Part shown: positions 1 to 14,725 of the stretch, in pieces | Layout: every line of letters begins with the position of its first letter | How positions within the stretch are numbered: the first letter of the stretch is position 1 | Origin: a bacterium | Lineage (GTDB): Bacteria > Deinococcota > Deinococci > Deinococcales > Deinococcaceae | Assembly (NCBI GenBank): GCA_021810505.1 | Contig: JAJZIR010000016.1 | Span: 1-53,903, forward strand | Direction: 5' to 3' | DNA length: 53,903 nucleotides | The notes under the pieces: model-generated | What the model saw: the letters and a program-made list of their open reading frames with translations, nothing else | The model's database searches: none | What the model was told of the DNA's origin: nothing | Made by a program: the position numbers and the translations under genes

Positions 1-224
1 CCGCCCAAGCTGCGGTGGCGGGCCAACAGCAAGACGCTGGCTCCCCCCTGGGCGGCGGCCACCGCGGCGGTCACTCCCTGGGGGGTGGCGCCGTAGACCA
101 GGACCTGGGGGGAGGTGGCCTGAGCGGGAGAGACGGCCAGGGGCAGGGGGTTTTCGGGGGTAGCCAGCGTCAACCCCAGCAAGGTCACCAGCATCATGAG
201 GGGGGTTCTCAGCAGCGTCCACAT
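1..224 (-). CDS. FAD-dependent oxidoreductase, N-terminal part (partial)
   Basis: Read on the minus strand from ATG at 224, 74 codons stay open to the window edge. The protein starts with a hydrophobic signal-like segment (WTLLRTPLMMLVTLLGLTLA), then from about residue 41 a dinucleotide-binding beta-alpha-beta element: VLVYGATPQGVTAAVAAAQG followed by ASVLLLARH. That pattern is typical of secreted FAD-dependent oxidoreductases of the PF12831 type. The rest of the gene lies outside the window, so substrate and length are unknown. A TAGAGT box 9 nt upstream of the ATG would give a very short leader. Confidence 0.7.
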   Translation of the reverse strand, partial: MWTLLRTPLMMLVTLLGLTLATPENPLPLAVSPAQATSPQVLVYGATPQGVTAAVAAAQGGASVLLLARHRSLG

Positions 225-11090: not shown

Positions 11091-12092
11091 TCAGGCCAGC
11101 TGCACCTGGTCCCGGCCCAGCCGTTTGGCCCGGTAGAGCGCGCCGTCGGCCGACCGGATCAGATCCTTGGGGCTAAACCCGGGCTGCCACTGGGCCACGC
11201 CGATGCTGACGGTCACCGGGTGGGCTAGGGGCCAGTCCAACACCTGGCGGCGCAGGCGCTCGGCGAAGTGCGCCGCCCCGTCGCGGTCGGTGTTGGGCAA
11301 GATGGCCAGCAACTCCTCGCCGCCGTAACGGCCCACCAGATCCCCGACGCGGCAGGCCTCCCGCAGGCAGGAAGCCACCCCGGCCAAGACCTGATCCCCG
11401 GCCAGGTGGCCAAAGCGATCGTTCAGCACCTTGAAATGGTCCAAGTCGATCATCAGCAAGCTCAGGGGCCGCCCGGAGCGGCTGGACTTGGCGATCTCCT
11501 GATTGAGCTGCTCCCCCAGAGCGTAGCGATTCGCCAGACTGGTCAGCGGGTCGGTCCGCGCCTGGTCGGCCAGCTCGGCGTTGGCCCGCGCCGCCTCCCC
11601 GAGCAGCCTCCGCAACTCCATCTCGGCCACCACCCGCCGGGAGAGGACCCCTAGGGCCCAGACCTGTTTCTCGGAGAGCGAGCGCGGCGTGGTGTCGATC
11701 ACGCACAGGGTGCCCAGCGCCTGGCCGTCCGGATCGAGCAGGGGGGTTCCAGCGTAGTAGCGGATGCCCGTCTCTCCGCTGACCAGCGGGTTGTCTCGGT
11801 AGGCCGGATCCGCTAGGGCGTCGGAGATGATCATCGGCCGGTCCGGGTTGGCGATGGCCCGGGCGCAGAAGGACCAAGCCCGGGGGGTTTCCGGCAAGTC
11901 CAAGCCGACTCGGGCCTTGAACCACTGGCGGTCTTCGTCGACCAGCGAGATCAGGGCGATCGGGGTGGCGGCGACCCAGGAAGCCAGCTCGGCGATCTCC
12001 TGGAAAGCCTCCTCCGGGGGGGTGTCGAGGATCTGGTAGGCGTGCAGCGCTGCCAGCCGGCGCTGTTCCAGAGAGTCGGCGTCTCCAGCCAT
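11091..12092 (-). CDS. GAF-GGDEF diguanylate cyclase
   Basis: A soluble sensor enzyme that makes cyclic di-GMP from two GTP. Residues about 12-160 form a GAF domain: [44 protein letters not shown] and [20 protein letters not shown]. This type is common ahead of GGDEF. The GGDEF domain spans about 178-330. Its active-site loop is GGEEL (257-261), a functional variant, with [14 protein letters not shown] upstream. A product-inhibition I-site RVGD (248-251) precedes it by the canonical five residues, so feedback control is likely. No membrane segment. The gene has its own leaderless-type promoter. The ligand sensed by GAF cannot be told. Confidence 0.93.
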
Positions 12093-12098
12093 CCCCCC

Positions 12099-12104
12099 AT
12101 CCTA
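12099..12104 (-). promoter_or_regulatory. -10 box (TAGGAT) for the diguanylate cyclase
   Basis: TAGGAT on the minus strand, six G residues, then the ATG at 12092. The spacing matches leaderless initiation. The G tract alone could also act as a crude ribosome site. Confidence 0.5.
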
Positions 12105-12128
12105 CACGCAGCCCCACCGCGCGGCGCA

Positions 12129-12157
12129 TTGACGCTGCGGCCGCCTAGAGCTAGACT
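12129..12157 (+). promoter_or_regulatory. leuS promoter (TTGACG-17-TAGACT)
   Basis: TTGACG (12129-12134), a 17-bp spacer and TAGACT (12152-12157). It is one of the best two-box promoters in the window. Transcription should begin near 12163-12165, giving a leader of about 100 nt before leuS. Confidence 0.7.
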
Positions 12158-12163
12158 TCCAGG

Positions 12164-12199
12164 GTGTACCTACGAGCCCAAGTCAGCAGCGTTCGCTGA
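12164..12199 (+). CDS. Putative 11-codon leader peptide of leuS
   Basis: A GTG at 12164 lies exactly 6 nt after the TAGACT -10 box, the leaderless spacing used elsewhere here. It opens the short frame MYLRAQVSSVR ending at TGA 12197-12199. Codon 3 is leucine (CTA). The coding region runs through the 5' arm and loop of the hairpin at 12174-12205. It is interpreted as a regulatory leader ORF. Translation has not been shown, and a single Leu codon is fewer than in classical leucine attenuators. Confidence 0.4.
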   Translation: MYLRAQVSSVR

Positions 12200-12205
12200 G
12201 GGCTC
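12174..12205 (+). promoter_or_regulatory. leuS leader hairpin 1
   Basis: GAGCCC (12174-12179) pairs with GGGCTC (12200-12205), and TCAGC (12183-12187) pairs with GCTGA (12195-12199). A 3-nt bulge AAG lies between the helices. A ribosome paused on the CTA codon at 12170-12172 would cover the 5' arm and prevent this fold. Confidence 0.5.
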
Positions 12206-12212
12206 CCCTGCA

Positions 12213-12249
12213 GGCGTCCCCGGCAGCCGCTGGGGACGCCTCTTCTCTC
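12213..12249 (+). terminator. leuS leader hairpin 2, attenuator-like terminator
   Basis: GGCGTCCCC (12213-12221) and GGGGACGCC (12232-12240) form a 9-bp GC-rich stem with a 10-nt loop. The pyrimidine tract TCTTCTCTC follows. Its 5' arm and loop can alternatively pair with GCTG and GGG of hairpin 1's 3' arm (12195-12202), so the two folds compete. The tract is interrupted by C, so termination may be partial. Confidence 0.5.
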
Positions 12250-12262
12250 GATCAGGAGCTGC

Positions 12263-14709
<2,447 letters not shown>

Positions 14710-14725
<16 letters not shown>

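Follow-up and report, generated by a model that had tools for sequence, protein, structure and literature searches.

Leader peptides encoded by leaderless ORFs have been reported for attenuators of leuS (leuL2/leuS) and other genes in Streptomyces lividans (PMC8079986), and leuS attenuators in Streptomyces spp. were predicted by Seliverstov et al. 2005 (PMC1262725). The leader studied here resembles leuL2/leuS in layout: leuS is directly preceded by a small, in the present case putatively leaderless, ORF that contains Leu (MRAVRLLLSEPR in S. lividans), by a hairpin and by a U stretch, which is imperfect here. However, it belongs to another phylum and carries one CTA codon in place of three adjacent Leu codons. 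In Corynebacterium glutamicum, the ilvL leader peptide starts one nucleotide from the transcription start, and translation-dependent attenuation was shown by mutation, according to PMC11857589, which cites Morbach et al. 2000. As far as that account goes, three competing hairpins and a leader peptide starting close to the RNA 5' end, a position that is predicted in the present case, are common to both (PMC11857589), whereas ilvL controls biosynthesis through ilvBNC via Val/Ile/Leu codons and is experimentally tested, the present case being read from sequence only. The leaderless Cys-rich upstream ORFs of mycobacteria (PMC4633059, PMC9031893), for which no conserved intrinsic terminator is reported (PMC1262725), likewise combine a leaderless small ORF with codons that sense an amino acid on behalf of downstream genes, the amino acid there being cysteine.

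Rare CUA codons serve as control codons in the leu leader of Salmonella, and their replacement by CUG lowered sensitivity, as PMC1183508 relates of Carter et al. 1986; selective charging explains the choice of CUA as control codon (PMC1183508). The control codon is the same as the one proposed here, but the Salmonella leu operon is biosynthetic. The Salmonella leader also differs in having a 5' UTR and a ribosome-binding site. The actinobacterial LEU element, a conserved pseudoknot in which Leu codons are paired with the Shine-Dalgarno sequence, precedes leuA, a different gene from leuS here. Leaderless mRNAs were reportedly described in Deinococcus deserti, in work of 2014 ascribed to de Groot and co-workers.

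The design is not unprecedented, given that leaderless leaders occur both at leuL2/leuS of S. lividans and at ilvL of Corynebacterium. A sequence-only reading of this DNA that had called it unusual overstated the point: attenuators with leaderless leader peptides are on record for leuS in S. lividans and for ilvB in Corynebacterium. The mechanism is ordinary and known. Its distribution is broad and apparently unreported in Deinococcota, where a search with partial coverage of the literature retrieved no report of leuS attenuation.

Architecture of the leuS leader

The window, that is the whole 53,903-nt stretch of Deinococcaceae DNA analysed here, carries leuS on its plus strand (12263..14725; leucyl-tRNA synthetase, 820 aa), recognized from the ORF, its relatives and a tRNA-synt_1 family match. 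A promoter scan placed a sigma-70-type promoter, TTGACG-17-TAGACT (12129-12134 / 12152-12157, plus strand), upstream of it, in the same arrangement as before leuS in relatives. This is the sole sigma-70-like site in 11900-12500 (shuffles 0.0 +/- 0.2) and the one promoter-like site between leuS and the divergent neighbour gene (11091-12092, minus strand), whose product we take from its motif to be GGDEF-type. Because the neighbour is divergent, a plus-strand terminator at this place could act only on transcripts entering leuS.

A GTG at 12164, 6 nt past the -10 box, opens an 11-codon, predicted leaderless ORF, (M)YLRAQVSSVR-stop (12164..12199, plus strand), with its TGA stop at 12197-12199. The 6-nt distance, which positions the start codon relative to the predicted RNA 5' end, is conserved among relatives. 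The only Leu codon of the ORF is CTA (12170..12172, plus strand), unusually early at codon 3 and 9 codons before the stop, a spacing also found among relatives.

Folding resolves the remainder of the leader into two plus-strand hairpins. Hairpin 1 (segments 1:2; 12174..12205; -16.3 kcal/mol) has its 5' arm within the leader ORF, and segment 2 (GCTGAGGGCTCC; 12195..12206), also evident by direct reading, overlaps the leader stop codon. Hairpin 2 (segments 3:4; 12213-12240) is terminator-like, with 12 bp and -26.4 kcal/mol; none of 300 shuffles gave a 28-nt hairpin as stable. Its 5' arm, segment 3 (12213..12224), can pair with segment 2 as an antiterminator or with segment 4 (GCTGGGGACGCC; 12229..12240), the 3' arm, as a terminator. 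Segment 2 repeats segment 4 imperfectly (9/12 bases alike), as one would expect were segment 3 the partner of both. The best 2:3 register joins 12195-12206 to 12213-12224 (10 bp, -12.8 kcal/mol). Directly downstream lies an imperfect U tract, TCTTCTCTC (12241..12249, plus strand), identified by direct reading; a simple terminator scan of the window leader did not accept hairpin 2 with so poor a U tract. The 99-nt leader as a whole folds more stably than 200/200 shuffles (z -2.8).

Much of this had been anticipated by the sequence-only reading, whose promoter, GTG-initiated MYLRAQVSSVR ORF with Leu at codon 3 and hairpin 1 were all recovered at the positions given above, and the folding that it called for bore out a structured leader. 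Other points needed revision: hairpin 2 is present at its proposed site, with 12 bp instead of 9; the pyrimidine tract before leuS exists, as the poor U tract just described; and the proposed pairing of 12195-12202 with 12219-12227 is possible, the register given above being the better one.

We consider it very probable that this leader is a classical, leucine-sensing, ribosome-mediated transcription attenuator of leuS. What the sequences show directly are the elements of the leader, how far these are conserved and how the alternative pairings compare in energy; where transcription starts, that the ORF is translated, that hairpin 2 terminates transcription and that leucine evokes a response are inferred. 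Transcription would begin at or beside GTG 12164, so that a ribosome could load on the leaderless 11-codon ORF. With ample charged Leu-tRNA, this ribosome would reach the stop codon and cover segments 1 and 2, whereupon the 3:4 terminator hairpin would form and RNA polymerase would halt before leuS. When charged Leu-tRNA is scarce, the ribosome would stall at the rare CTA and keep hairpin 1 open; segment 2 would then pair with segment 3, the terminator would be delayed or prevented, and leuS would be transcribed.

Conservation of the leader and of its CTA codon

leuS was detected in 100 of the 111 genomes of the class, a phylum-wide search returning the identical 111 genomes, and upstream regions were gathered for 97 leuS loci from five families of the Deinococcota-type lineage. 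When a CTA was required in the ORF, a short, apparently leaderless ORF with in-frame CTA directly followed the -10 box in 77/97 loci, spread over all five families; at 59 of these 77 loci the -10 box and the ORF start were exactly 6 nt apart. The terminator hairpin was present in 51 of 52 leaders checked and is followed by T runs of 5-8 (T5-T8) in most relatives. The encoded peptides include MIASALENRGDRD, MIRSGLLSLGALLG, MFIKELLLGENRE and MSPARLIP. Five families thus keep before leuS what the sequence-only reading led one to look for, namely a short ORF at the predicted RNA 5' end, a Leu codon within it and a terminator hairpin, and most relatives possess both the ORF and the stems. Among the named records searched for relatives, one Truepera-group record was close, the other matches coming from other phyla; this closest record is an uncultured Truepera, and its leader is identical to that of genome G110. 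On this ground we would place the window in Deinococcota, with a bacterium of the Truepera/Thermus group as its source.

The preference for CTA was assessed in an unfiltered test, in which ORFs were chosen by TTGAC promoter, spacing and ORF length alone and CTA was not required. An in-frame CTA occurred in 22 of 24 distinct ORFs. CTA accounted for 37/61 leader Leu codons (61%; binomial p 6e-35 vs 4.3% in window genes), and its share of Leu codons in the relatives' leuS genes is 2.1%. The CTA triplets of the leaders fall into frames 0/1/2 as 37/2/3, that is, 37/42 are in frame 0. The same search matched one of 1940 shuffled regions and none of 97 reversed regions. One rare Leu codon is thus strongly selected, in agreement with the theory of selective tRNA charging.

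These counts bear on the reading that a random ORF happens to lie beside a promoter and G+C-rich hairpins. Hairpins are common in high G+C DNA, and the window antiterminator alone is non-significant in most tests; however, conservation over five families with controls near zero makes chance a very improbable source of the arrangement.

Among the 97 loci, the leader was absent before leuS in genera g10, g15, g27 and most of g16. In g10 (L017, L018), a TTGACA promoter is followed by a leaderless ORF of 40 codons that contains no CTA; its stop codon and the start codon of leuS apparently overlap (ATGA), and translational coupling in place of attenuation is possible there. In g15 and g27 (L005, L006, L111-L117), the attenuator is missing and a -10-like box lies directly 5' of the apparent leuS start, so positioned that leuS itself looks leaderless. 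In two genomes, G047 (L009/L128) and G110 (L119/L120), there are two leuS-like genes, and every one of these has a separate CTA leader; G047 has the same leader sequence twice, and one of its leuS-like copies matches only residues 8-500. Covariation in the Thermus-like genus was uninformative: the aligned leaders were too alike, so no pair counts were made.

Predicted competition between antiterminator and terminator

When 2:3 pairing in the window leader was modelled during transcription of the terminator, its mean was 0.63-0.78 with a ribosome stalled at CTA, 0.10 without a ribosome and 0.09 with a ribosome at the stop codon. Against shuffles, this pairing reached p 0.16, 0.066 or 0.017, depending on which of three ribosome footprints was tried, and when judged by arm-sequestration energy the window antiterminator was no better than shuffles (p 0.70). 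In equilibrium folding of the full-length window leader, the 3:4 hairpin wins in every ribosome state, and the window switch must therefore be kinetic. Equilibrium folding of full-length leaders was consequently set aside as a test, being non-discriminating for the window with the terminator always winning. Scoring segment 2 against the terminator arm alone, as a duplex, also made a weak test (10/46 leaders at p 0.05; window p 0.10).

Placing the ribosomal A site on CTA, instead of the ribosome at the stop codon, raised the predicted upstream pairing of the terminator 5' arm in 34/50 leaders; the opposite preference, by the same margin, was seen in 0/50. This asymmetry is partly trivial, because more RNA is hidden under a ribosome that has reached the stop, a point to which the shuffle control is directed. 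In that control, with one leader per genus and with genera that are related, so that genomes of the lineage are non-independent samples, antiterminator pairing beat shuffles (p 0.05 or better) in 12/23 genera (Fisher p 7e-11). The switch between CTA stall and stop codon is thus predicted by the model to hold in most genera. The window's own switch is weaker, its antiterminator being only sometimes better than shuffles. Of the leucine-sensing attenuation by a leaderless ORF first proposed for this DNA, the ORF, Leu codon, hairpin and predicted switch proved conserved, and the weak part is the window antiterminator. Taken together, the lineage gives good support to the mechanism, which in the window species is plausible, short of demonstrated.

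Several observations count against an attenuator in the window: the weak antiterminator, the 3:4 hairpin winning at full length in every state, the poor U tract, the single early Leu codon and the loss of the leader in whole genera. Some of them could be signs of decay, the antiterminator and U tract having weakened in the window species so that leuS would be nearly constitutive, and the p value of 0.70, the poor U tract, the lone CTA at codon 3 and the losses elsewhere fit this. However, the strong promoter and its exact 6-nt spacing are intact, as are the 9-codon CTA-to-stop distance and the very stable terminator hairpin, and segment 2 still resembles segment 4, which leaves decay unlikely. 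The poor U tract would also suit a leader in which the position of the ribosome governs how accessible the leuS start is, or whether Rho can reach the RNA, and the mycobacterial leaderless Cys leader ORFs are described as attenuating translation of downstream genes. Yet the leuS Shine-Dalgarno sequence, AGGAG (12254..12258, plus strand; direct reading), lies outside hairpins 1 and 2, and T5-T8 follows the same hairpin in most relatives, so that we regard control of translation or by Rho as distinctly improbable.

Related leaders and predicted branched-chain control

Genome-wide, the strict pattern TTGAC-17..19-TANNNT-5..7-RTG has 15 sites, vs 0 for the reversed pattern. One of them heads the leaderless ORF MWWTVGLLGSLRGIRR (L182; G000:C8:80354-80392, minus strand), which is followed by a terminator hairpin and then by ilvB; ilvB of this genome is, by its sequence, apparently preceded by the same design as leuS. 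Similar leaders precede ilvB in other genera: in G001, G002, G016, G038 and G020, TTGACA promoters head leader peptides with many branched-chain residues. Elsewhere in the window's own genome, a leaderless mini-ORF, VMAIAMWLTPRASR (L186; G000:C12:53033-53072, minus strand), has a TGA overlapping a GTG that may be the start of a homocitrate-synthase-like gene.

Two further synthetase genes of the genome have T-box-like leaders, both scoring below the Rfam gathering score of 93: valS (L194 3267-3479, minus strand; 75.7 bits, E 2e-15) and, as a weak match, ileS (L195 3417-3555, minus strand; 31.4 bits). Their presence would favour a leader of T-box type, or one that senses tRNA or a ligand in some other way, before leuS as well. 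However, an Rfam scan of the window matched one tRNA and nothing else, and direct reading of 12158-12262 found no TGGNACC, the UGGNACC antiterminator motif of T-boxes, making such a leader exceedingly improbable here. With a probable attenuator before leuS and T-box-like leaders before valS and ileS, the branched-chain synthetases of one genome would come under two types of control.

It is quite possible, though we propose it tentatively, that the phylum has from its ancestor an undescribed layer of control, in which leuS is attenuated through leaderless leaders that read CUA. This layer would be shared with ilvB and operate beside the T-boxes of valS and ileS, and the window species would have a minimal form of it with its stall at the third codon. 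In the leaders of the Thermus/Truepera lineage, amino-acid-sensing attenuation on leaderless mRNAs is met in a conserved and testable form. As leaderless initiation dispenses with a Shine-Dalgarno step, one may ask directly how ribosomes load in time not to fall behind RNA polymerase, and leaders as short as these could act as simple sensors of charged Leu-tRNA.
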